This document shows positions 13,770 to 26,882 of a stretch of DNA of 64,000 bases, in pieces. The notes under the pieces are model-generated. The model ran no database searches. It saw nothing but the letters and a program-made list of their open reading frames with translations, and was not told the DNA's origin. Positions within the stretch are counted from its first letter, which is position 1; every line of letters begins with the position of its first letter. This stretch comes from Nocardioides kongjuensis (lineage in GTDB: Bacteria > Actinomycetota > Actinomycetes > Propionibacteriales > Nocardioidaceae), in the NCBI RefSeq assembly GCF_013409625.1, contig NZ_JACCBF010000001.1, forward strand, positions 3,289,001 through 3,353,000, in the 5' to 3' direction. Position numbers and translations under genes: made by a program.

Positions 13770-14750
13770 TCAGGACCCCAGGAACCGGGAGGCGTTGCCC
13801 CAGCGCAGGGCGGCACGGTCGGACTCGCTGAGGAAGTCCGCGTCGTCGACCACCTTGCCGACCGGGCGCTCTCCCAGCGGGTAGGGGTAGTCGCTGCCGA
13901 CCATCACCTGGGACACGCCCATGGTGTCGACGAGGGTGCGCAGCGCCCGCGGGTCGAAGACCACGCTGTCGACGCTGAACCGGTCGACGTACGCCGAGGG
14001 CGGCTGTGCCGAGGTGGCGATGACGTCGCCGCGGCGGTGCCAGGCGTTCTCGAAGCGCCCCAGCCAGAAGGGGAACGAGCCGCCGCCGTGGGCGAAGCAG
14101 ATCCGCAGCGAGTCCGGCACCTTGTCGAACACGCCGCCCAGGATCATCGCGAGCACCGAGAGATGGGTCTCGGCGGGCATCCCGGCCAGCCATCGCGCCA
14201 TCCACCGGTCCAGCCGGGGCGAGGTGTGCATGTCCCAGGGGTGCACGAAGACCGGGACTCCCGAGTCGGCGGCGTGCTGGAGGAAGGTGATGATGCCCGC
14301 GTCGTCGAGGTCGCGATCACCCACGTGGTTGCCGATCTCGACGCCCCGGTGCCCGGCGGCGACGGCGCGGTCGAGCTCGACGCACGCCAGGTCCGGGTCC
14401 TGGAGCGGGACCTGGCAGAACGGCACCAGGCGCTCACCGCCGGGCGCGCAGATCTCCAGCGCCAGGTCGTTGAAGATCCGGCAGACGGCGGCAGCCTCGG
14501 CCCCGGGCAGGTCGTAGGAGAAGAAGACCGGCGTCGGCGAGACGACCTGCCGGGCGACGCCGTCCGCGTCCATGTCAGCGAGCCGCACCCCGGCGTCCCA
14601 GCAGTCGTCCTGGACGCGCCGGAACTCGGAGTCACCGACGAGGATCATCGCGTCGCGCTCGGAGTCGATCCGCAGCCAGGGCTGTCCCGGGCCGAGGTCC
14701 GGCCAGCCACGGGGGACGTAGTGGGTGTGGACGTCGACGGTGCCGCCCAC
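13770..14750 (-). CDS. nbaD: 2-amino-3-carboxymuconate-6-semialdehyde decarboxylase (ACMSD)
   Basis: A 326-residue zinc amidohydrolase-fold decarboxylase. Metal ligands are visible as VDVHTH (H8, H10), FVHPWDMH (H170 region), AHGGG (H221) and GSDYPYP (D287). It converts aminocarboxymuconate semialdehyde, the product of 3-hydroxyanthranilate dioxygenase, to 2-aminomuconate semialdehyde. This diverts the intermediate from quinolinate toward catabolism. The GTG start at 14750 lies 3 bp after the dioxygenase stop. It is the last gene of the six-gene LysR-controlled operon. Confidence 0.9.
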   Translation of the reverse strand: MGGTVDVHTHYVPRGWPDLGPGQPWLRIDSERDAMILVGDSEFRRVQDDCWDAGVRLADMDADGVARQVVSPTPVFFSYDLPGAEAAAVCRIFNDLALEICAPGGERLVPFCQVPLQDPDLACVELDRAVAAGHRGVEIGNHVGDRDLDDAGIITFLQHAADSGVPVFVHPWDMHTSPRLDRWMARWLAGMPAETHLSVLAMILGGVFDKVPDSLRICFAHGGGSFPFWLGRFENAWHRRGDVIATSAQPPSAYVDRFSVDSVVFDPRALRTLVDTMGVSQVMVGSDYPYPLGERPVGKVVDDADFLSESDRAALRWGNASRFLGS

Positions 14751-14753
14751 GGC

Positions 14754-15275
14754 TCAGCCCTTTCCGGGGTGGAGCGCACCGCAGCTCGTGCAGGTGCGCG
14801 CCTCCTCGGAGGCGTAGAACTGCTCGAAGACGGGCGGCAGGTCGGCGACGATGTCGCGCACCTGGAGCTCGACCTCGTGGACCTGGTGGTGGCAGGACTC
14901 GCAGAACCACACGAACTTCTCGAGCGTGCCCTCCTCGCGGATCCGCTCGATCACGATGCCGATCGACCCCTCCTCGGGGCGCTGCGGCGAGTGGTGCACG
15001 TTGCGCGGGAGCATCCACATGTCGCCCTCGCGGATGTCGACGCGGACGGGGCCCTCGTCGGTCATCAGGTTGACGTGCATGTTGCCCTTGACCTGGTAGA
15101 ACCACTCCTCGTAGGGGTCGAGGTGGAAGTCGGTGCGCTGGTTGGGGCCGCCGACCACCTGCACGATGAAGTCGCCCATCGGCTCCCACATCTGCCGGTT
15201 GTTCACCGGCGGCTTGAGCAGGTGCTCGTGCTCGGCGACCCACTTCTCGAAGTTGAAGACGGGTGGGATGTTCAT
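14754..15275 (-). CDS. nbaC: 3-hydroxyanthranilate 3,4-dioxygenase
   Basis: A 173-residue cupin dioxygenase that opens the ring of 3-hydroxyanthranilate. The catalytic residues match the bacterial enzyme in number: R47, H51, E57 and H95 for substrate and Fe(II), with R99 and E110. The C-terminal rubredoxin-like iron site is present as CESC (C125, C128) and CTSC (C162, C165). Length matches the bacterial family. ATG 15275 overlaps the previous gene's TGA. Confidence 0.94.
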
Positions 15276-15709
15276 GCGTCGTCCTTCCGGTCCGCGGTGC
15301 CGGGCAAGCAGGCGACCGCCTGGATCTCGATGAGCAGGTGCGGGTGCGGGAGCTGGTGGACCGCGACCGTCGTACGGGTCGGACCGTCGTGGTCGAAGAA
15401 CTCGGCGTAGGTCTCGTTGTAGCCGCCGAAGTCGTTCATGTTGACCAGGTACGTCGTGACCTGGACCAGGTCCTCGAGGCCGGCTCCGACGGCGGCGAGG
15501 ATGTCGCGGATGTTCTCGATCACGGCCCGGGTCTGCACCCGGATGTCGAGGTTCGTGACACCGAGGTCGTCGACCTCGACGCCGTCGAAGGTGTTGTCCG
15601 GTCGCCGGCTGCTCGTCCCGGACACGTAGGCGAAGCCGCCTGCGACCTTCACGTGCGGGAAGCGCCCCCGAGGCGTCGCCTTCCCGGCCACCAGGTGCGC
15701 CTCGCTCAT
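15272..15709 (-). CDS. nbaF: RidA-family 2-aminomuconate deaminase
   Basis: A 145-residue RidA/YjgF-fold protein. It has [20 protein letters not shown] and [29 protein letters not shown] segments, plus the family's C-terminal [14 protein letters not shown]. The position between the dioxygenase and the oxalocrotonate decarboxylase supports deamination of 2-aminomuconate to 4-oxalocrotonate plus ammonia, rather than generic enamine hydrolysis. It has 4-bp ATGA overlaps with both neighbours. Confidence 0.88.
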
Positions 15710-16500
15710 CGTGCGCCCCCGATCGTGCAGGACACGCTGCCGAGCCCGGCCACGGTGGCCACGACCTGCGCCCCCGCCCGGTCGGGCAGGGGGGCAGCGG
15801 CCGTGGCGGCTCCGGCGAGGATGATCGATCCGGCCGGCGCCGGGACGCCGTGCTGCGACGCCAGTCGGGCGACCGCGGCGACGGCACGCAGCGGGTCGCC
15901 GAGGATGTCGCCCGTGGAGCCGGTCTCGGCGACCTCGCCGTCGATCTCGAGGGTCACCTCGAGGTCGGCGAGATCGAGGTCGGAGAGGACCGTCGCGAGG
16001 TCGCGCCACTCCCCGACCACGAATCCGGCGGCGGAGGTGTTGTCGGCGACGACGTCGGCGAGCGAGAACCGGAAGTCGCGGTAGCGGCTGTCGATGATCT
16101 CGAGCGCCGGTGCGACCTGTGCGACGGCCGCGAGCTGCTCGTCCGCCGGCGCCGCCGGATCGAGGTCGGCACCGAGGAGCAGCGCGATCTCCGGCTCGAC
16201 CCGCGGGTGGATGAAGCGGCTCCGGTCGATCTCGCCGCCGTCCTCGGTCTGCGTCTGCGCGGTCATCACGCCGAGGATGACGTCGGAGACGCCCATCTGC
16301 TCGGCCTTGGCCTTGCTGGTGAAGCCCAGCTTGACTCCGACGACCCGCTCCCCGCGCCCGACCCGGAGGGCGATGCCCTCGCGCTGGACGAGGTACGCGG
16401 ACTCCAGGTCGACCTCGGTGCCGGCGGTCAGCTGGACGATGGGCGCACGCCCGGTCCGGGCCCGGTCGAGCCGATCGGCCAGCTCGGCGATGTCGCTCAC
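15706..16500 (-). CDS. nbaG: 4-oxalocrotonate decarboxylase
   Basis: A 264-residue member of the fumarylacetoacetase-like hydratase/decarboxylase family. Family blocks include [15 protein letters not shown] and the metal site [14 protein letters not shown] followed by [14 protein letters not shown]. It should convert 4-oxalocrotonate to 2-oxopent-4-enoate. The GTG at 16500 is preceded by GAGGAGGAC. It overlaps the deaminase start by 4 bp. It is a paralogue of the next gene; assignment of decarboxylase versus hydratase follows family resemblance and order. Confidence 0.82.
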
Positions 16501-16552
16501 GTGTCCTCCTCGATGTGGTGCGTGCTGTGGGGGCGGCGCGGGCGCCACGTCG

Positions 16553-17344
16553 TCATGCCGCCTCCCGCTCCACGAAGGTCGCGGTGAGCTCACCGAGACC
16601 GGCGATCCGCGCGTGGAAGGCTCCCGGGCCGATGACGGGGACAGCCTGTCCGACCGCTCCGGAGAGGACCACGTCACCGGCTCGCAGCGCAACACCCCTC
16701 GCCGCGAGCGCACGCGCGAGGGAGGTGACGGCGACGATCGGGTTGCCGGCGATCGCACCGGCGAGGTCGCCGTCGCGGCCGACCTCGGTGAGCACGGTGG
16801 TCGCGCCGACCAGGTCGACACCGGCCAGCGGGCGCGGGATGCTGCCGAGGACGAACGCCCCGCTCGAGGCGTTGTCGGCGACGGCCTCGGCCGGCGTGAC
16901 GTCCCAGCCGAAGATCCGCGAGTCGACGATCTCGATCGCCGGCAGCACGAAGTCGGTCGCCCGGATCACGTCGGCGACGGTCGGGCGCTCCAGGTCGAGG
17001 TCCCGCCCGAGCACGAACGCGACCCCGACGCCGACCCTCGGCTGGAGCAGGCTGTCGAGCGAGATCGGCTCGCGGTCGCCGTACGCCATGTCGTCGAAGA
17101 GGGTGCCGATGCCGGACGTGCTGTCTCCGACCAGGTGAAGCCTCGGGGCCGAGGACAGGCCGACCTTGTGTCCGACGACCCGGTGTCCGTTCTCCTCCCG
17201 GTACCGGCTGACCAGCGCCTGGACCCGGTAGGCCGCCGCGAGGTCGTCGGTGTCGATCAGGTCGCGCACGGGCTCGCACGGCTCGCCCCAGCGTGCGGCG
17301 TCGACCAGCCGCCAGGCGGCGTCGGTGATGTCGTCGTCGTTCAC
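16553..17344 (-). CDS. nbaH: 2-oxopent-4-enoate hydratase
   Basis: A 263-residue protein of the same fold as its downstream neighbour. It has VVGHKVGLSSAPRLHLVGDS, the metal-binding LLQPRVGVGVAFVLG and LPAIEIVDSRIFGWDV. Hydration of 2-oxopent-4-enoate gives 4-hydroxy-2-oxovalerate. The GTG at 17344 overlaps the dehydrogenase stop (GTGA). The ligand triad Glu-x-Glu of this family appears as GVGVAF here, so one acidic ligand position looks replaced compared with EPEIAL in the paralogue; this should be checked by alignment. Roles of the two paralogues could be swapped. Confidence 0.78.
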   Translation of the reverse strand: MNDDDITDAAWRLVDAARWGEPCEPVRDLIDTDDLAAAYRVQALVSRYREENGHRVVGHKVGLSSAPRLHLVGDSTSGIGTLFDDMAYGDREPISLDSLLQPRVGVGVAFVLGRDLDLERPTVADVIRATDFVLPAIEIVDSRIFGWDVTPAEAVADNASSGAFVLGSIPRPLAGVDLVGATTVLTEVGRDGDLAGAIAGNPIVAVTSLARALAARGVALRAGDVVLSGAVGQAVPVIGPGAFHARIAGLGELTATFVEREAA

Positions 17345-18810
17345 AGCTGCACGCACACGTTCGTGGGCTCGGTGTAGAAGTGCAGGGAGTGCGTCCCGCC
17401 CTCGCGGCCGATGCCGGACAGGCCGACGCCGCCGAAGGGCGAGCGCAGGTCGCGCAGGTACCAGGTGTTGACCCACGACATGCCCACGCGCATCTGCTGG
17501 GCGACGCGGTGGCCGCGCTCGAGGTCGCGGGTCCACACGGCGGCGGCCAGGCCGTAGCGGGTGTCGTTGGCGAGCCCGACGGCCTCCTCCTCGGTGTCGA
17601 AGGGCATCAGTGCCGCGACCGGGCCGAAGACCTCCTCCCGGACCGCTCGTGCCTGCTGGTGCAGTCCGGCCCACAGCGTGGGCTCGATCCAGGCACCGCC
17701 GGCGAGGTCCGCGCCGAGGTCCGGGACGCCGCCGCCGACCAGCACCTCGGCCCCCTCGTCGACCGCCGTCGCGAGGTAGCGCTCGACCTTGGCGCGGTGC
17801 TCGACGGAGATGAGCGGTCCGGTGGTCGTGGCCTCGTCCTCGGGACGTCCCAGGCGCAGGCCCCGGGCGTGCTCGACGAGGCCGGCGACGACCTCGTCGT
17901 ACACCGGGCGCTCGATGTAGACCCGCTCGGTGCACAGGCACACCTGGCCGGTGTTGGTGAAGATCGAGCGCCCCAAGCCGGCCACCGCCTTGTCGAGGTC
18001 GGCGTCGGCGAAGACGACCGCGGCGTTCTTGCCGCCGAGCTCGAAGGAGACCGGGCGGACGAAGGGCGCGACGCCGCGCATGATCGCCGCCCCGGTGGCC
18101 GACTCCCCGGTGAAGGTGACGCCGTCGATGTCGGGGTGGGTCGTCAACAGCTCGCCGGCGGAGCCGGGACCGAAGCCGTGCACGACGTTGTAGACGCCGT
18201 CCGGAGCACCGGCCTCGGCGATGACCTCGGCGAGGAGCGTGGCGGTCGAGGGCGTCTCCTCGGACGGCTTGACCACGACCGCGTTGCCGCAGGCCAGGGC
18301 GGGCGCGACCTTCCAGGTCAGCAGCAGCAGCGGCAGGTTCCACGGGACGACGATCGCGACGACGCCGAGCGGGCGCGGGACCGCGTAGTTGAGCGCCCGA
18401 CGCCCGTCGGCCAGCTCGGTGAGGAACGAGTCGAGACCGGTGGCGCTGACCGTGTCGGCGAACGAGCGGAAGTTGACCACCGCGCGGGCCACGTCGAGCT
18501 CACGGGCCTGGCGCAGCGGCTTGCCGGTGTCGGCCACCTCGGCAGCGACGAACTCCTCGAAGCGAGCCTCGATCCGGTCCGCGATCCGGCGCAGGAGGGC
18601 AGCGCGCTCGGCGACCGTGCTGCGCCCCCAGGCGCCGTCGACCGCACGCCGGGCCGCGGCGACCGCGGCGCCGACCTGCTCGGCCCCGGCCTCCTCCACG
18701 AGGGCGACGAGCGATCCGTCGACCGGGCTGTGCTTCTCGAAGGAGGCGACACCCTCGACGTACGCGCCACCGACGAAGTTCTGCAGGCGCTGGGCTGTTG
18801 CGTTGACCAC
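17341..18810 (-). CDS. nbaE: 2-aminomuconate semialdehyde dehydrogenase (aldehyde dehydrogenase family)
   Basis: A 489-residue NAD-dependent aldehyde dehydrogenase of the 2-hydroxymuconic/2-aminomuconic semialdehyde group. It shows VPWNLPLLLLTWKVAPAL, the GFGPGSAGELLTTHPDIDGVTFTGES region in pieces, the catalytic Glu in FELGGKNA, and the catalytic Cys in NTGQVCLCTERVY. It is the first gene of the six-gene operon. The start is GTG 18810, with TACGCT exactly 6 nt upstream and -35 TTGGAC 18 nt before that, so the mRNA is predicted to be leaderless. Confidence 0.9.
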   Translation of the reverse strand: MVNATAQRLQNFVGGAYVEGVASFEKHSPVDGSLVALVEEAGAEQVGAAVAAARRAVDGAWGRSTVAERAALLRRIADRIEARFEEFVAAEVADTGKPLRQARELDVARAVVNFRSFADTVSATGLDSFLTELADGRRALNYAVPRPLGVVAIVVPWNLPLLLLTWKVAPALACGNAVVVKPSEETPSTATLLAEVIAEAGAPDGVYNVVHGFGPGSAGELLTTHPDIDGVTFTGESATGAAIMRGVAPFVRPVSFELGGKNAAVVFADADLDKAVAGLGRSIFTNTGQVCLCTERVYIERPVYDEVVAGLVEHARGLRLGRPEDEATTTGPLISVEHRAKVERYLATAVDEGAEVLVGGGVPDLGADLAGGAWIEPTLWAGLHQQARAVREEVFGPVAALMPFDTEEEAVGLANDTRYGLAAAVWTRDLERGHRVAQQMRVGMSWVNTWYLRDLRSPFGGVGLSGIGREGGTHSLHFYTEPTNVCVQL

Positions 18811-18816
18811 ATGCCG

Positions 18817-18885
18817 AGCGTAGGAAGGTCAGCTATGTCCGTCCAATGCCCTTTCGCTCGCCAGCCATGCTCGTCCGGGCATACC
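18817..18885. promoter_or_regulatory. LysR-type binding array and promoter for the nbaE operon and the lysR gene
   Basis: Box A is GCTATGTCCGTCCAATGCC (18832-18850). It contains, on the minus strand, -35 TTGGAC; -10 TACGCT is at 18817-18822. After 13 bp comes box B (18864-18885), a 22-bp dyad with consensus GGYATGYYCG-N2-CGRRCATRCC. Box B's right edge overlaps the lysR -10 (TACCTT, 18882-18887), which predicts autoregulation. The identical 19-mer and same spacing recur at 22520-22573. Confidence 0.8.
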
Positions 18886-18893
18886 TTGGCCCC

Positions 18894-19823
18894 ATGGTCA
18901 CGGATCGCCTCCTCGACGGCAGGCTGAAGCTGCGCCACCTCGTCCTGATCGTCCAGATCGAGGACGCCGGCAGTCTCGCCGGTGCGGCCGAGGCGCTCCA
19001 CATCACCCAGCCCGTCGTCACCCGCGGGCTCCGGGAGGTCGAGGACCTCCTCGGCGTCGACCTCTTCGAGCGGGGACGTCGGGGAGTGACCCCGACCCAG
19101 TTCGGCGAGTCGCTCCTCGTGCACGCGCGGGCCGTGATCGCCCAGCTGCGGCAGGCGGACCGCCAGATCGAGCAGCTCGCGCGCGCCGACCTCGGCACCG
19201 TGACCGTCGGCACCCACCTCGCCGGCTCCAACGTGCTCCTCCCGCGGTCGATCGCCTCCCTCAAGCAGGAGCACCCCGAGCTGACCGTGGTCGTGCGGGA
19301 GGGCCCACCCGACGCGCTCCAGGCGGCCCTGCTGGCGGGCGACTGCGACCTCGTGGTCGGCCGCCTCACGGGCGGCGCGCCGACCACCGTCGTGCAGCAC
19401 ATGCTCTACCGCGAGCCGATCCGCGTGGTCGCCCGGGAGGGGCACCCGGCGGCGCTGCTGCACGAGCCGACGCTGGCCGAGCTCGCCCCGTACCCGTGGG
19501 TGTTCCCCATCAGCCAGACGACGCTGCGGCGAGAGCTGGAGGAGGCCTTCGTCCACGAGGGGGTCGAGCTGCCGGTCAACCGGGTGGAGTGCACCACGAT
19601 CCTGACCCTGCGCGAGCTCGTCGTCTCGATGGACGCCCTCGCCGTGCTGCCCGAGCTGATCGCCCTCGCCGATCCGGCGCTCACGGTGCTCGACGCGTCG
19701 CTGGCCTCGATCCGGCGAGCCGTGGGCGTGACCCGGGCCAAGCACCGGCCCCTCTCGCCGGCGGCCAGCGCGATGCTCGACCACCTCCGGGTCGAGGCCG
19801 CCACGCTCCCCCGCCCTCGGTGA
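18894..19823 (+). CDS. LysR family regulator of the kynurenine degradation genes
   Basis: A 309-residue LysR-type protein. The N-terminal winged helix is at about residues 8-66 (HLVLIVQIEDAGSLAGAAEAL then HITQPVVTRGLREVEDLLG). It is followed by a linker helix and a periplasmic-binding-like effector domain beginning near TVTVGTHLAGSNVLLPRSI. ATG 18894 is chosen because TACCTT lies 6 nt upstream. The gene sits between, and points away from, the six-gene operon and toward kmo/kynU. Both target promoters share its probable binding array. The inducer is likely a pathway intermediate. Confidence 0.87.
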   Translation: MVTDRLLDGRLKLRHLVLIVQIEDAGSLAGAAEALHITQPVVTRGLREVEDLLGVDLFERGRRGVTPTQFGESLLVHARAVIAQLRQADRQIEQLARADLGTVTVGTHLAGSNVLLPRSIASLKQEHPELTVVVREGPPDALQAALLAGDCDLVVGRLTGGAPTTVVQHMLYREPIRVVAREGHPAALLHEPTLAELAPYPWVFPISQTTLRRELEEAFVHEGVELPVNRVECTTILTLRELVVSMDALAVLPELIALADPALTVLDASLASIRRAVGVTRAKHRPLSPAASAMLDHLRVEAATLPRPR

Positions 19824-19841
19824 CCCTCCGGGCCGCGCGGC

Positions 19842-21191
19842 TCAGCGGCGGCGAAGGCCGCGCGCGGCGATCGCGCCGAGCGCGGTCGCGCCCAGGGCCC
19901 CGATCGTCGTCAGCACCCTGCCCTGCCGTCGGGTGCGACGCAGCACCTCGGCGTACGGCACCGTCGAGAAGGAGACCAGCTCGTACCGCGAGACCACGAG
20001 CGAGGGGAACCACCGCTCCAGGGCGTGCATCGCGGTGTTCTTGGTGCGGTGCACCCGCGAGTTCACGAGGTCGCGCATCTCGACGAAGTTCTGCAGCGCC
20101 ATCGCCGCGATGGCGTCCGTGTTGGGCTTGCGCGCCTTCTCGTACGCCGGCAGCACCCGCGACCAGTCCCCGTCGTGCCTGTCGAGCAGGGTGTCGATCT
20201 CGATCGCGTCCTCGAAGGCGCAGTTGGCGCCCTGCCCGTAGAACGGCACGATCGCATGGGCCGCATCCCCGACCAGGGCCACCGAGGCAGCCGCCCCGTG
20301 CGCCGTCCACGGCCAGGCGCGCACCGTGACCAGCGATCCGACCGGGTTGGCGAGGTAGTCCTCGGCGAGAGTCGGCATCAGGTCCACGACGTCGGGGTAC
20401 TCCCGCGCGAAGTGGGCCCGCACCTGCGCGGCGGTGCTCAGCGAGGAGAGCCCGCCCGGACCGTCCTTGGGCCAGAACAAGGTGCAGGTGAAGGACTTGT
20501 CGAGGTTGGGCAGGGCGATCATCATCGAGCCGCCGCGTGCCCAGATGTGCAGCGCCGTCGGGTCGATCGCGAAGTCGCCGTCGCGCGCCGGGATGGTGAG
20601 CTCCTTGTAGCCGTGCTCGAGGAAGTCCTGCGCATAGTTCGTGCCCTCGCGGAACTGGACGGCGCGGCGGGTGGCGCTGTAGGCGCCGTCGCAGGCGAGG
20701 ACGATCGACGCAGCCAGCTCCTGGACGCCGTCCGGCCGGGCGACCGTGACCACGCCCCGCTCCAGGTCGACCGCCTCGACACGCGACTCGAAGAGCACCG
20801 TCACGCCGGGGGTCTTCTCGGCGGTGTCGAGCAACGCCTCGTTGAGGCCGGAGCGGCTGATCGAGTTGATCGCCCGCGTGCCGTCGGCGCTGTAGGACTG
20901 GAAGTTCGGGCTTCCCGTGACGGGGTGGACCATCCGGCCCCGCATCGGCAGCGCCGCGGCCAGGGCCTCCTCGCGAAGGCCGACCCGCTCGAGGGCGTCG
21001 AGGCCGCGCGCGGAGAGCGCGAGGTTGATCGACCGGCCGCGCTCGGCACCGGCCCGCCGGGGGTCGGCACGCCGCTCGAGCACGGTGACGTCGTACCCGC
21101 GGCGGCCGAGGAGCGTCGCCAGCAGGCAGCCGGCCAGACCGGCACCGACCAGGGTGACGTCCTTGCTCCTGGTCGCCTTGTTCGTCGTCAC
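19842..21191 (-). CDS. kmo: Kynurenine 3-monooxygenase
   Basis: A 449-residue FAD hydroxylase converting L-kynurenine to 3-hydroxykynurenine with NADPH and O2. The Rossmann motif VGAGLAGCLLATLLGRRG begins near residue 15; RGRSINLALSARGLDAL and the FAD-ribityl motif VGDAAHAIVPFYGQGANCAFEDA are characteristic of KMO. The last 25 residues form a hydrophobic helix with a basic end (LTTIGALGATALGAIAARGLRRR), resembling a membrane anchor as in eukaryotic KMO. The GTG start overlaps the kynU stop. It is convergent with lysR (18 bp apart). Confidence 0.92.
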   Translation of the reverse strand: MTTNKATRSKDVTLVGAGLAGCLLATLLGRRGYDVTVLERRADPRRAGAERGRSINLALSARGLDALERVGLREEALAAALPMRGRMVHPVTGSPNFQSYSADGTRAINSISRSGLNEALLDTAEKTPGVTVLFESRVEAVDLERGVVTVARPDGVQELAASIVLACDGAYSATRRAVQFREGTNYAQDFLEHGYKELTIPARDGDFAIDPTALHIWARGGSMMIALPNLDKSFTCTLFWPKDGPGGLSSLSTAAQVRAHFAREYPDVVDLMPTLAEDYLANPVGSLVTVRAWPWTAHGAAASVALVGDAAHAIVPFYGQGANCAFEDAIEIDTLLDRHDGDWSRVLPAYEKARKPNTDAIAAMALQNFVEMRDLVNSRVHRTKNTAMHALERWFPSLVVSRYELVSFSTVPYAEVLRRTRRQGRVLTTIGALGATALGAIAARGLRRR

Positions 21192-22468
21192 GAGGACTCC
21201 TGGATCCGGCGCAGCGCGTCGTACGCACGCCAGCAGTCGTGGTAGGTCGAGTACAGGGGCACCGGCGCCAGGCGGATCACGTCCGGCTGGCGGGCGTCGG
21301 CGATCACGCCGAAGTCCCTGCGCAGGGTCTCGGCGAGCTCACCGACGTCGATCCGGTGCGAGCGGACCGAGAGCTGGCATCCCCGACGGGCGGGGTCCCG
21401 CGGCGTGATGACCTCGAAGTGGCTGGCGCCGAGGGTGTCGAGGAGCGACTCGAGGTAGCCGGTGAGTCGCTGGCTGCGCCGGCGCAGCGTCGCCATGCCG
21501 ACCCGGTCGAAGATCTCGAGGCTGAGCAGGACCGGCGCCATGGCCAGGATCGGCGGGTTGGACATCGACCAGGCGTCCGCGGTCGCCTGGGGGGTGACCT
21601 CCGGTGCCATCTGGAAGCGCACCGACGGGTCGGTGCTCCACCAGCCCTCGAGCCGCGGGATCGAGCGGTCCTGGAGGTGGCGCTCGTGGACGTAGGCGCC
21701 CGCAACGGCACCGGGCGCGCTGTTGACGTACTTGTAGGTGCACCACGCCGCCCAGTCGACGCCCCACTCGTGGAGCTTCAGCTCGACGTTGCCAGCCGCG
21801 TGGGCCAGGTCGAAGGCGACGATCGCGCCGGCCGCGTGGCCGGCCCTGGTGATCAGCTCGAGGTCGAGGTGCTCGCCGGAGTAGTAGTTGACGGCGCCCA
21901 GCAGCACCAGCGCGACGGTGCTCCCCTCCTCCTCGAGGAAGGCGGCGACGTCCTCGCTGCGCAGGTTGTCCTCGCCTGCCCGCGGCTTGAGGCGGACGAC
22001 GGTCTTGTCCGGGTCGAGGCCGTGCCACGCGGCCTGGCTGCGGACCGCGTAGCTGTCGCTCGGGAAGGTCGTGTCCTCGATGACGATCCGCGTGCGGTCG
22101 CCCTCGGGACGGTAGAAGGACGCCATCAGCAGGTGCAGGTTGACCGTCAGCGAGTTCATCATGACGACCTCGTGCGGCCGGGCACCGACCAGCCGCGCTG
22201 CGGGCTCGCGGAGCAGCTCGTGGTACGACACCCACGGGCGCCGTGCCTCGAGGTGCCCCTCGACGCCGAGCTGGGCCCAGTCGGCCAGCTCCTCGCCGAG
22301 CCGCTCGGCGAGGGCCGCCGGCTGCAGGCCCAGCGAGTTGCCGGCGAAGTAGGCGATCTGCCCGTCGCCGTACGGCGGCAGCAGGAACTCCTCGCGCAGG
22401 GAGCCCTCGGTGTCCGACGCGTCGAGCGCCAGCGCATCCCGCTCGGTCGGTGCGGGGTAGGAATCCAT
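21188..22468 (-). CDS. kynU: Kynureninase
   Basis: A 426-residue PLP enzyme cleaving 3-hydroxykynurenine (or kynurenine) to 3-hydroxyanthranilate plus alanine. The fold-type I active site is visible: FDLAHAAGN (D220, H223) and WCTYKYVNSAPG, with K246 as the PLP lysine. ATG 22468 has GGAG 4 nt upstream. The promoter has -35 TTGGAC (complement of 22529-22534) and -10 TACGCT (complement of 22504-22509), giving a leader of about 30 nt. It is the first gene of the kynU-kmo operon. Its product feeds the dioxygenase encoded in the sister operon. Confidence 0.94.
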   Translation of the reverse strand: MDSYPAPTERDALALDASDTEGSLREEFLLPPYGDGQIAYFAGNSLGLQPAALAERLGEELADWAQLGVEGHLEARRPWVSYHELLREPAARLVGARPHEVVMMNSLTVNLHLLMASFYRPEGDRTRIVIEDTTFPSDSYAVRSQAAWHGLDPDKTVVRLKPRAGEDNLRSEDVAAFLEEEGSTVALVLLGAVNYYSGEHLDLELITRAGHAAGAIVAFDLAHAAGNVELKLHEWGVDWAAWCTYKYVNSAPGAVAGAYVHERHLQDRSIPRLEGWWSTDPSVRFQMAPEVTPQATADAWSMSNPPILAMAPVLLSLEIFDRVGMATLRRRSQRLTGYLESLLDTLGASHFEVITPRDPARRGCQLSVRSHRIDVGELAETLRRDFGVIADARQPDVIRLAPVPLYSTYHDCWRAYDALRRIQESS

Positions 22469-22503
22469 GACTCTCCAAACTCGTCTGTTGTCCGCCGGAA
22501 CCG

Positions 22504-22573
22504 AGCGTAGGAACGGCCTGCTATGTCCGTCCAATGCCATTTTCCGGGTCAGGTATGCCCGCGCGGACATGCC
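22504..22573. promoter_or_regulatory. LysR-type binding array and promoter for kynU-kmo
   Basis: Box A GCTATGTCCGTCCAATGCC (22520-22538) is identical to that upstream of nbaE. After the same 13-bp gap, box B (22552-22573) has halves GGTATGCCCG and CGGACATGCC separated by 2 bp. Minus-strand -35 TTGGAC lies inside box A and -10 TACGCT is at 22504-22509 (complement). The layout fits a LysR recognition site (B) plus an activation site (A) overlapping -35. Confidence 0.8.
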
Positions 22574-22581
22574 TGGCGTGT

Positions 22582-23361
22582 TCAGCGCACGCGGCGCAGG
22601 AAGCTCGCCGTTCGCTCGTGGCGGGGGTTGTCGAGGACCTCGGCGGCGGTGCCCTCCTCGACGACGACGCCCTGGTCCATGAAGACGACCCGGTCGGCGA
22701 CCTCGCGGGCGAAGCCGATCTCGTGGGTGACGACGATCATGGTCATCCCATCCTCGGCGACCCGCTTCATGACCGCCAGCACCTCGCCGACCAGCTCGGG
22801 GTCGAGCGCACTGGTGGGCTCGTCGAACATCATCAGCTGCGGCTGCATCGCCAGCGCGCGGGCGATGGCCACCCGCTGCTGCTGGCCGCCGGAGAGCTGC
22901 GAGGGGTACGAGCCCTCCTTCTCCGCGAGGCCGACCGTGGCGAGGAGCTCACGCGCCCTCGCCACCGACGCGGCCTTCGGCTGTCTGAGGACCTTCACCG
23001 GTCCGTAGGTGACGTTCTCCAGCGCGGTCATGTGCTGGAACAGGTTGAAGTGCTGGAACACCATCCCGATCCGGCGCCGGGCACGAGCGACGGCGTGCTC
23101 GCCCTGCTCGTACAGCACGCCTCGCCTCATCTCGTAGCCGACCCGCTCCGAGCCGACCTCGACGATGCCGCCGTCGACCGGGTCGAGGTGGTTGATGCAG
23201 CGCAGCAGTGTGCTCTTGCCCGAGCCCGACGGTCCGAGGATGCAGACGATCTCGCCCTGGCGCACCTGGAGGTCGACGCCGCGAAGCACGTGGTTGTCGC
23301 CCATCCACTTGTGCACACCCTCGACCTTGAGCATCGTCCGGGTCGTGGTCGAGGTGCTCAT
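22582..23361 (-). CDS. Polar amino acid-type ABC transporter ATPase
   Basis: A 259-residue ATPase of the GlnQ/HisP group. It has the Walker [16 protein letters not shown], the Q-loop [19 protein letters not shown], the signature [15 protein letters not shown] and Walker [15 protein letters not shown]. It is the last gene of a four-gene minus-strand operon and overlaps the permease gene by 4 bp. The kynU promoter array begins immediately downstream, raising the possibility that the cargo is tryptophan- or kynurenine-related. Confidence 0.92.
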
Positions 23362-24299
23362 GCGACAGCCTTTCCGGTACGCCGCACGCCGGCGCGCTGC
23401 CTGCTCCTGGCGGCCACCCGACGGTGTCCGGCCGACGCGCTGAAGTGACGCTCGAGGAAGTGCTGGCCGACCGACGCGATGCTGACCAGGGCCAGGTACC
23501 AGATGGTCGCGACGGCCAGCAGCGGCAGGATCTTGAAGTTCTGGCCGTAGATCAGCTGGGTCTTGGTCAGCAGGTCGCTGCCGCCGATGACCGAGACCAG
23601 CGCGCTGGCCTTGAGCAACCCGATGAACTGGTTGCCCGTCGGCGGGATGATGACCCGGATCGTCTGTGGGAGCACGATGCGGCGCAGCGCCTGGGGCCGG
23701 GTGAGCCCGATGCTCACGGCGGCGTCGGTCTGGCCGGGCGGGACCGACAGGATGCCGCCGCGGATGATCTCGGCCATGTAGCCGGACTCGGCGAGCGAGA
23801 GGGCGCACAGCCCGGCCGTGAACCCCGAGATGAGTGTGTTCGTGTCCTTGCCGAGGATGGTCGGGAACAGCACCGCCATGTTGAACCAGAGCAGGACCTG
23901 CACCAGCATCGGCACGCCCCGGAAGAACCACACGTACGCGCGACCGATCAGCGCGGCGACCTTGTTCTGGCTCTGCGTCAGCATCGCGACGACGAACGCG
24001 ACCGCGATCGAGATGACCATGCTCAGCACCGAGAGCAGCAGGGTCACCTTGATCCCGTCGAGGATCATCGGGTGGAAGAGGTACTCACCCGTGACGCCCC
24101 AGTCGAGATTGGGGTTGCGGGCCTGGGTGCGGACCAGGGAGGCGAGGACGACCAGCGCGACGAGCGCCGTCAGCCACTGGCCGCAGCGGGGCCGGCGGCG
24201 GGCCTTGATGGCGACCGAGCGCCGGTCGTCCTCTCCCCGCAGGGAGAGGCGACCGGCGTCGACCGGCTGCGCGATCCGTTCGACGTCCACGGCACTCAT
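23358..24299 (-). CDS. Polar amino acid-type ABC transporter permease
   Basis: A 313-residue membrane protein of the His/Glu/Gln/Arg/opine family. An extended N-terminal cytoplasmic stretch of about 40 residues precedes the first helix. The core has [17 protein letters not shown] and the EAA loop [20 protein letters not shown]. Cytoplasmic C-terminal tail is Arg-rich. The ATG at 24299 is used; a GTG at 24305 overlaps the binding-protein stop and is an alternative. Only one permease gene is present, so it probably works as a homodimer. Confidence 0.9.
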
Positions 24300-24301
24300 C
24301 G

Positions 24302-25225
24302 TCACGACGTCGCCAGGTTGATGCCGGGCGTCGGCAGGTCGATGACCTCGACGTCCCACTTCTTGAGGATCTCGTCGTACGTGCCGTCCTCGTGGATCGC
24401 CTCGAGGGCGGCGAAGAAGGCATCGCGCAGCTCGGAGTCGTCCTTGCTGAAGGTCATCCCGAGGTAGACCTTGGGCTCGAAGTTCACCGGCAGCGACTCG
24501 AGCTTGTCGTCGGTCTCGCGGTTGATCACCGAGACGGCCATGTCCGGCCAGAACATGGCGTCCACGCGACCCGACACGAGGGCCAGGTTCTTGTCGCTGC
24601 TGCTCGGGAACGAGACCAGCTTCGTCGGGGGCTTGCCGGCCTGGACGCAGGCGGCGGCCATCATGTCGACGAGGCGCTTGGCGTCGCTGCCCTTGACGTC
24701 GCCGATCTTGATCCCGCAGCCGCCGTCGACCTCGCTGGTGATGCCCTTGGGGTTGCCCTTCTGGACCATGAAGACGGTGCCGGCGACCTGGTAGTCGATG
24801 AAGTCCACCTGCGCCTGGCGCTCCTTGCGGTCGGTCATGCCGGCGATCGCGGCGTCGAACTTCCCGCTCTGCATGCCGATGAGCAGCTGGTCGAAGGGGA
24901 CCTTCTGCCACTCGACCTTCAACCCGAGCTTGGCGGCCATCGCGTCCATCAGGTCGACGTTGAAGCCCTTGATCTCGGACTCGCCGATGGGCGTGAAGTT
25001 CGCCGGCTCGAAGTCGGGCTGGGTGCCGACGACGACGGTGCCCTTCTCGGCGATGTCGGCCGGCACCAGCCCAGCCAGGGCCGAGTCCGCCTTCGGCCGC
25101 GCCTTCTCGGAGCCGTCGCCGCCGCTGCTGCCACACGCGGCGGCGGACAGCAGGACGGCGCCGAGCGCCGCTCCGGCGACACCCCGACGGGCCATGGTGC
25201 GGCGGTTGAGGGTACGGATGTTCAT
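24302..25225 (-). CDS. Substrate-binding lipoprotein of a polar amino acid-type ABC transporter
   Basis: A 307-residue extracytoplasmic binding protein (SBP family 3). The N-terminus is MNIRTLNRRT then MARRGVAGAALGAVLLSAAAC, written in parts, with a double-Arg start and lipobox SAAAC. The mature domain has VGTQPDFEPANFTPIGESEIKGFNVDLMDAM-type core elements and GMTDRKERQAQVDF. ATG 25225 follows GAGGAGCACCCAC. The tail (IDLPTPGINLATS) is ordinary. The ligand pocket cannot be assigned by eye. Confidence 0.9.
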   Translation of the reverse strand: MNIRTLNRRTMARRGVAGAALGAVLLSAAACGSSGGDGSEKARPKADSALAGLVPADIAEKGTVVVGTQPDFEPANFTPIGESEIKGFNVDLMDAMAAKLGLKVEWQKVPFDQLLIGMQSGKFDAAIAGMTDRKERQAQVDFIDYQVAGTVFMVQKGNPKGITSEVDGGCGIKIGDVKGSDAKRLVDMMAAACVQAGKPPTKLVSFPSSSDKNLALVSGRVDAMFWPDMAVSVINRETDDKLESLPVNFEPKVYLGMTFSKDDSELRDAFFAALEAIHEDGTYDEILKKWDVEVIDLPTPGINLATS

Positions 25226-25295
25226 GTGGGTGCTCCTCATCAGGTGCTGTCCCGGGGCGGGCCAGCGGTGGGGTGGGTTGTTCCGAGAGGTCTTC

Positions 25296-26882
25296 TCAGC
25301 AGCAGGCGGGCACGAGGTCGTGGTCGGGCTGGTCGACGAAGACGTCGGCCCGCTCCATCTCGTCCCACATCGCCTGCACGATGCGGCCGGACTCCGCGAG
25401 GATCCGGTCCTCGTCGATCCCGAGGACGTGTCCGTCACGGACCTGCCAGTTGCCGTCGGTCATCACGTTGCGCACCGAGAGACCGTTGGCGTAGAAGAGG
25501 TGGTTGAGCGGCTCGCGCGGCACGGTTCCGACCCCGACGAGCAGACCGGTGACGTCGATGCTCGTCAGGTCGGCCTTGGCGCCCGCCTCGATCCGGCCGA
25601 GGTCGTCGCGGCCCAGGCCGCGGGCGCCGCCGACGGTCGCCGCCTCCAGTCCGGTCCAGATCGACGGACGCACCATCGGGACAGGCGTGCTGTCACCGAG
25701 GAAGTCGGCGCGTATCCGGCCGTAGATCACGGCCATCTTGAGGTTCTCCAGGTAGTCGTTGGAGTGGGTGTCCAGACCGATGCCGGAGTTGACCCCGGCG
25801 CCGAGCGCCTCGGGCCACGGCCACTGCGCGGGCGTGACGCCGGCGCCGGTGCCCGACGGGCAGTTGGCGAACGTGAAGTGGTCGTTGGCGAGGACCGGCA
25901 GGTCCCGGGCGAGGTCGATGCCGAGCAGGTGGGCACCGAACACCCGGACCGAGCCGTCGAAGATGCCCAGGCTCTCGAGCCAGGGCACCTCGTCGTGACC
26001 CCACAGCCGCTGCAGTGCCTGGGTGTCCGGCTGCGGCGCGCGGCCGTAGCCCGACTGCAGGTGGATGTGCAGCCCGTGCAGCTCCTGCGCAGCGGTCTTC
26101 ATCGCGAGGTAGGTCTCGGGGGTGTGCACCGCATTGGTCGCCGGCGCCATCATCGGCCGGATCCGACCGTCGTCGACGCCGTCGATGCTGCGGGCGTAGA
26201 CGAGGTTGTCCTCGATCTCGGCGAGGGTGCCGGCCACGGAGTCGAGCAGGGGCTGGTCGTCCTCGCCGCGCTTCCAGATCGGCAGGATCCGCTTCATCCC
26301 GGGAACGGCGCCCGAGGGGTAGCCACGCAGGCCCAGTTCCCGCGCGACCCGCACGTAGCTCTGCATCTGGCGCAGGCTCTTGGACATCTCGACCTGCGTG
26401 GTGCAACCGCCCCGCACCATCTCGACCAGGTTGAGCGCGGTCATCAGGTCGAGGTCCTCGTCGCTGAGGTCGTCGAGCATCACCATCGCGTGCAGGAACT
26501 GGCGTCCCTGGCGCAGCTCGACGCCCTTGGCCATCGGCGTGAGGTTGCCCTCGACGTAGCCCCGGGTCGCCGCACCACCGGCAGCGTGGCCGTGCATCGA
26601 GATGAAGCCGGGCACGAGGACCTGTCCGTGCATGTCCACCCGCTGGTCGACCGACCCACGCCGGGGTCGGACCTCGAGGACCCGGTCGCCCTCGACGACG
26701 ACCTCGTGGTCGCGCAGCAGGGCCATCCGACCGTCCTGCCAGGCGAGCACCCAGCTGGGCGCGAGGACGAGTGGGCCCGTGGCGGGCACCGAGGTCCGCT
26801 CGCCCCTGACCCTGTCCAGCAGGGCGCCGCGAGCACCGATGCTCGCCTGCAGACCCTCGCGTCGTGCGCTCTCAACAGTCAC
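25296..26882 (-). CDS. Amidohydrolase family protein (TRZ/ATZ type)
   Basis: A 528-residue metal-dependent hydrolase with a beta-sandwich plus TIM barrel. The metal sites are GFISMHGHAAGG (HxH), HIHLQSGYG, NDHFTFAN and LDTHSNDYLENLK (final Asp). This set is typical of ATZ/TRZ-like deaminases and chlorohydrolases. The GTG at 26882 has AGGAG 5 nt upstream. It leads an operon with the amino-acid-type transporter. A TGGTCTACCA operator lies 42 bp upstream, so the neighbouring GntR protein likely represses it. The substrate may be the imported compound. The C-terminal DLVPACC is unusual. Confidence 0.82.
   Translation of the reverse strand: MTVESARREGLQASIGARGALLDRVRGERTSVPATGPLVLAPSWVLAWQDGRMALLRDHEVVVEGDRVLEVRPRRGSVDQRVDMHGQVLVPGFISMHGHAAGGAATRGYVEGNLTPMAKGVELRQGRQFLHAMVMLDDLSDEDLDLMTALNLVEMVRGGCTTQVEMSKSLRQMQSYVRVARELGLRGYPSGAVPGMKRILPIWKRGEDDQPLLDSVAGTLAEIEDNLVYARSIDGVDDGRIRPMMAPATNAVHTPETYLAMKTAAQELHGLHIHLQSGYGRAPQPDTQALQRLWGHDEVPWLESLGIFDGSVRVFGAHLLGIDLARDLPVLANDHFTFANCPSGTGAGVTPAQWPWPEALGAGVNSGIGLDTHSNDYLENLKMAVIYGRIRADFLGDSTPVPMVRPSIWTGLEAATVGGARGLGRDDLGRIEAGAKADLTSIDVTGLLVGVGTVPREPLNHLFYANGLSVRNVMTDGNWQVRDGHVLGIDEDRILAESGRIVQAMWDEMERADVFVDQPDHDLVPACC

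Follow-up and report, generated by a model that had tools for sequence, protein, structure and literature searches.

NbaR of the Pseudomonas 2-nitrobenzoate nba cluster is an example of a LysR gene that occurs together with nba genes. In an excerpted account of LysR proteins, the primary site lies near -65, overlapping the promoter from which the divergent regulator is transcribed, and the secondary site lies at the -35 (PMC4834489). CatR and ClcR both bind two neighbouring sites, an RBS and an ABS, according to an excerpt of PMC6449761. One palindromic secondary site of ThnR, found at the expected place, proved dispensable (PMC4834489, in the same excerpt). PltR has a 22-bp lys box at -74 to -53 that contains T-N11-A (PMC3382589, excerpt). 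The kynurenine pathway of proteobacteria is controlled by KynR, a regulator of the Lrp/AsnC type for which L-kynurenine is the proposed effector (PMC7057948, excerpt). KynR is the published bacterial case that we found, and it belongs to another protein family than the LysR-type candidate described here. No LysR regulon for the kynurenine pathway in Actinobacteria was among the matches listed from the open-licence PubMed Central literature. The kind of system is known, and this regulon appears to be undescribed.

The candidate regulon was studied in a 64-kb window, the whole stretch of DNA that was analysed. The features are as follows.

18864 to 18885, minus strand: 22-bp dyad between nbaE and lysR, putative recognition site, GGTATGCCCGGACGAGCATGGC; -54 to -75 from the inferred nbaE start
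18832 to 18850, minus strand: 19-bp box A of nbaE, putative activation site, GGCATTGGACGGACATAGC; -22 to -40 from the inferred start
18841 to 18846, minus strand: nbaE -35 TTGGAC within box A, by eye
18817 to 18822, minus strand: nbaE -10 TACGCT, 18-bp spacer, by eye; same hexamer and offset in loci L041, L042 and L044
17341 to 18810, minus strand: nbaE, 2-hydroxymuconic semialdehyde dehydrogenase model (TIGR03216, 782 bits against a cut-off of 693)
13770 to 17344, minus strand: remainder of the presumed nba operon, with hydratase-like, decarboxylase-like (by eye) and Rid-type genes, nbaC and nbaD
18894 to 19823, plus strand: lysR, candidate regulator, divergent from nbaE, with its ATG 8 bp past the dyad
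18882 to 18887, plus strand: candidate lysR -10 TACCTT across the dyad's outer end, by eye
22552 to 22573, minus strand: 22-bp dyad of kynU, putative recognition site, GGCATGTCCGCGCGGGCATACC; exact match to the consensus
22520 to 22538, minus strand: 19-bp box A of kynU, putative activation site, identical to the nbaE copy
22529 to 22534, minus strand: kynU -35 TTGGAC within box A, by eye
22504 to 22509, minus strand: kynU -10 TACGCT, 19-bp spacer, by eye
21188 to 22468, minus strand: kynU, kynureninase (TIGR01814, 413 bits against a cut-off of 246)
19842 to 21191, minus strand: kynurenine 3-monooxygenase-like FAD enzyme (kmo), second gene of the kynU operon, named by context

The LysR protein has both expected domains above their cut-offs, the N-terminal HTH_1 (PF00126, 65.6 bits) and the C-terminal LysR_substrate (PF03466, 113.6 bits). 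Its best NCBIfam model is that of PcaQ (TIGR02424). The score of 192.4 bits falls under the cut-off of 303.8, and the neighbours of the gene are nba and kyn genes, which sets it apart from PcaQ. Models for 3-hydroxyanthranilate dioxygenase match nbaC above their cut-offs. NbaD had no NCBIfam match; its name is presumptive and follows its position in the operon. The substrate of nbaE we take to be the 2-amino form. For the kmo-like FAD enzyme, no equivalog model scored above its cut-off. The region upstream of kynU (22585-26882) holds genes of a polar amino-acid type ABC transporter, with the permease and binding protein recognized by eye, and an amidohydrolase-like gene. A matrix scan of the window found no array belonging to this region.

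Each of the two target promoters carries the same array, which reads in the direction of transcription (both targets are on the minus strand) as a 22-bp dyad, 13 bp, the 19-bp box A and a TACGCT -10 element. The sequence-only reading had proposed an identical 19-bp box at both promoters, and GCTATGTCCGTCCAATGCC is indeed exact at 18832-18850 and 22520-22538. No third copy exists at up to three mismatches in the window (0.03 expected) or in the whole genome (G000, one contig of 5,673,606 bases). The proposed dyad consensus, GGYATGYYCG-N2-CGRRCATRCC, is exact at 22552-22573 and has one mismatch at 18864-18885. At up to three mismatches 0.17 sites would be expected by chance in the window, and two sites occurred in 1 of 100 shuffles. 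A slightly looser dyad pattern finds these two sites alone in the whole genome at up to one mismatch; at two mismatches it falls to chance level, giving 27 rows where the reversed control gave 25. The two elements share half-sites, GGYAT-N12-ATRSC in the dyad and GGCAT-N9-ATAGC in box A, where they stand three bases closer.

The 13-bp gap and the start-to-start distance of 32 bp are right at both promoters. The distance from the box to the -10 is not identical. TACGCT begins 9 bp past the box at nbaE and 10 bp past it at kynU, so the spacers from TTGGAC to TACGCT are 18 and 19 bp, respectively. A sigma-70 consensus scan called no promoter. If transcription starts at 18810 and 22497, as placed by eye, the dyad centres fall at -64.5 and -65.5, and box A spans -22 to -40 at nbaE and -23 to -41 at kynU. 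The nbaE GTG lies 21 bp past box A and 7 nt past the -10, and its transcript is probably leaderless. The kynU ATG at 22468 lies 51 bp past box A and has a leader; this start was chosen by eye, and the longest ORF begins at 22570. The nbaE dyad overlaps the putative lysR promoter, ending 8 bp before the lysR ATG with the by-eye TACCTT across its end. The kynU dyad has no divergent lysR.

In its geometry, the window resembles the CatR, ClcR and ThnR class: counted from the inferred starts, the putative primary palindrome would centre near -65, and a putative secondary site lies at the by-eye -35. This secondary site is box A, which is conserved with fixed spacing and whose function is putative. 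The symmetric half-site spacing in the window is N12, in contrast to the T-N11-A of that class. T-N11-A is absent from the kynU dyad, and the nbaE dyad has one, off centre. The nbaE dyads of L041, L042 and L044 are shorter by one base and read ATG-N9-CAT, which is T-N11-A. The half-sites of CatR and ClcR, AkACC-N5-GGTAT, are unlike those of the window, and nbaE and lysR of the window both look leaderless, unlike the genes of the class. As with PltR, the palindrome measures 22 bp and the regulator is divergent from its target; from the inferred start, the window dyad lies at -75 to -54. PltR differs in sequence and pathway, and its box is reported to contain T-N11-A.

The conservation of the array was followed in other genomes. 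Contigs of close relatives held only two distant LysR genes (32% and 25% identity), and whole-genome searches were therefore used. The LysR protein was searched in 215 genomes of the genus (11 matches, E<=1e-60), 394 of the class (13 matches, 1e-85) and 391 of the order (5 matches, 1e-85), with scoring limited to the top 5 or 10 candidates of each genome. NbaC was searched in 215 genomes of the genus (15 matches) and 396 of the phylum (6 matches). These counts include G000, and the samples overlap. A stretch of up to 20 kb per locus was mapped with the window proteins by tblastn; matches below 80, 70 or 40 bits, depending on the mapping round, were left out of the gene maps.

Genomes that carry the array of 22, 13 and 19 bp bear nine family labels, and the gene behind it is nbaE, nbaD, the Rid gene or kynU. 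The array is present at 22 of the 23 loci that encode this LysR (about 50% identity or more) and at none of the nine nba/kyn clusters without such a LysR in the stretch. Because the loci share ancestry, these counts are a measure of association and not of independent trials. Loss of the boxes at orthologous loci was named beforehand as one outcome that would speak against the motif; the boxes are kept. The proposed geometry of a recognition site plus an activation site also gains support, since the conserved boxes track the LysR gene rather than the pathway genes and the arrangement matches the excerpted account in PMC4834489.

Among three LysR loci added later, two have the array, scoring 38.6 before the Rid gene (L110) and 35.1 before nbaE (L111). 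The third, L109 of genome G1007, has no array near lysR, though its LysR is the closest among the genomes searched (69%, residues 21-306). Closer LysR proteins, P0001 (96%) and P0002 (79%), turned up as protein clusters only. In L109 (9955-12129, minus strand), lysR lacks its first 20 codons, and the remainder, from about codon 21, shares one reading frame with an integrase-type ORF to which it is fused. It looks as if a mobile element had integrated into the 5' end of lysR. The nba/kyn cluster of G1007 (L114), 4.5 Mb from the broken lysR, has no array; it was counted as a cluster without LysR in its stretch, and its genome carries the broken lysR elsewhere. Clusters L043, L045-L049 and L114, from the genus and order, have nba/kyn genes and neither this LysR in the stretch nor the array. 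Genome G216 has two LysR genes, one adjoining nbaE (L041) and one adjoining kynU (L060), while the window has one for both.

The array also stands out by score. A held-out matrix of fixed spacing, built from 11 arrays outside the genus, scored the nbaE site at 42.7 bits and the kynU site at 33.5. The next best score in the 64 kb was 6.3, and the maximum in 60 Markov-1 sequences of 64 kb was 10.6. With fixed spacing, L041 reached only 4.4 and L042 11.3. A freedom of one base in the spacing was added after the one-base-shorter dyads of L041, L042 and L044 had been seen. In this spacing-free test, the similarity group of each locus was left out, and the null was the maximum of 12 shuffles of its own region. 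All 20 LysR loci (the window, L041, L042, L044, L055, L056, L058, L059, L060 and L075-L085) scored 18.9-45.3, each above its own shuffle maximum (6.8-20.1). The eight nba/kyn loci without LysR in the stretch (L043, L045-L049, L057 and L086) all scored 9.8 or less; L043, at 9.8, exceeded its own null of 9.0. In L044, L075 and L076, the best held-out match was a second array and not the one before nbaE. L086 (5 kb) and L085 (4 kb) are fragments, and nbaE of L085 was read by eye at the contig end. Scores of 15-19 occur at other places in L056, L076, L077 and L079, probably by chance, which leaves the weakest array (L059, 18.9) in some doubt.

The best explanation of these patterns, in which we have high confidence, is that both regions are predicted operators through which the LysR encoded at 18894-19823 jointly controls the two operons. 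The protein is best read as a ligand-dependent activator of 3-hydroxyanthranilate breakdown, with its own promoter probably repressed. One dimer of a LysR tetramer would sit on the 22-bp dyad, centred near -65, and the other would sit across the 13 bp on box A at the -35. Upon binding a pathway metabolite, LysR would shift on box A and recruit RNA polymerase, and the nbaE and kynU operons would be switched on together. LysR on the nbaE dyad would repress lysR by the same binding, because this dyad overlaps the likely lysR -10. Such a scheme for LysR proteins is published, as excerpts of PMC4834489 and PMC11739112 describe. As inducer we would guess, with little conviction, 3-hydroxyanthranilate or the product of its ring cleavage, and not kynurenine: of the 23 LysR stretches, 18 have a mapped nbaC, against 12 with kynU, three of which match at only 32-35% identity.

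Several distances recur across the loci. Of the 18 arrays that precede nbaE or the Rid gene, 14 have the first codon 21-22 bp past box A (the exceptions are L058, L079, L082 and L085). Eleven of 19 loci have a possible lysR start 6-8 bp past the dyad. Nine of these 11 also show a TANNNT across the dyad's outer end, and the half-site itself contributes part of that TANNNT. With these fixed distances between dyad and lysR, the dyad can serve the target as its recognition site and at the same time cover the lysR promoter like a lid. We give even chances to a broader proposal, an undescribed LysR regulon for 3-hydroxyanthranilate breakdown in many actinobacterial families that works as a rigid two-way switch. 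The outer end of the dyad would be the -10 of a leaderless lysR, the gap would be fixed at 13 bp, and the box would contain the -35 of a leaderless target. The N12 and N9 half-site spacings could set the preferred state of the tetramer, held or released.

Other explanations fare less well. It is unlikely that LysR mainly represses both operons, with the dyad and box A blocking the -35 until an inducer releases them. Box A does cover the presumed -35, but a dyad centred near -65 points to an activator, as do the weak -10 elements, and most LysR proteins activate their targets and repress themselves (PMC4834489, excerpt). Binding of the array by a different regulator that co-occurs with this LysR is quite improbable, although some arrays lie kilobases from lysR (L079 and L111). 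Within the genus, LysR and array are both absent where nba/kyn genes stay (L043, L045-L049); both are present in L059, where no nba gene was mapped; and in 11 of 19 loci 6-8 bp separate the dyad from a possible lysR start. We consider it very unlikely that a recent duplication of one promoter explains the identity by ancestry and not by function. The two promoters agree at all 19 positions of box A, but only at 15 of 22 in the dyad, 7 of 13 in the gap and 9 of 40 upstream of the dyad. The last two values argue against a block duplication of the promoter, and the same pattern and spacing occur in other families, where the distant arrays largely contradict a recent origin. A duplication retained by selection is possible and would leave the function unchanged. 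It is scarcely credible that the kynU dyad serves to terminate transcription of the ABC transporter gene upstream and resembles the nbaE site by chance: the dyad begins 8 bp past the stop codon of that gene, but 18700-22700 contains no terminator-like site and the array score is far above chance.

Under the predicted joint control by LysR, the regulon found in the window genome consists of the nbaE and kynU operons only, with lysR itself probably a further member. The motif had been offered as a means of finding further members. In the window genome it adds none: no third array was found by box or by dyad at up to one mismatch in the whole genome, or by the held-out matrix in the 64-kb window. 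The gene for tryptophan dioxygenase (PF03301) lies at about 311.4-312.2 kb of G000:C1, about 3 Mb from the nba/kyn locus, and has no array (best matrix score in L088, 0.4). In L112 (2256-4159), it is followed by a PLP-enzyme-like gene with a weak EgtE match, 27 bits against a cut-off of 400. By eye this gene had been considered as a kynureninase, and no such model matched.

In relatives, the motif does lead to other genes. Additional arrays stand before a periplasmic-binding-protein gene (L044), before MFS transporters (L056 and L059) and before a flavin reductase-like gene (L085). The L059 array is weaker and accompanies a LysR in a stretch in which no nba gene was mapped. In L075, the array stands before a gene with a weak LVIVD match, and similar genes were seen by eye in L055 and L076. 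A looser pattern for box A by itself matched 16 of 296 phylum genomes, 15 besides G000, and one of the 15 (G342) is the LysR locus. In three others (L097, L098 and L107), the match in box A brings the full-matrix score to 17.7-24.1; their dyads are poor and no cluster gene was mapped. The pattern also missed G285 and G503, both of which were sampled and have arrays. Box A alone is thus neither specific nor complete. The full array is specific enough to flag members of the regulon, transporters in relatives included, in genomes without annotation. Kynurenine and 3-hydroxyanthranilate breakdown in actinobacteria gains a candidate regulator and a precise putative operator, and the promoter could act as a metabolite sensor if the inducer is identified.

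A more distant LysR clade (44-47% identity, L050-L054) has an arrangement adjoining lysR of a dyad, a 12-bp gap and GG(C/T)ATTGG. These five loci score 10.9-27.7, each above its own null (5.7-14.0), and were left out of the 22 of 23 because their box A is without its second half. The gene behind the L050 array encodes a Pfam Cyclase domain, and similar genes were seen by eye in L051 and L054.
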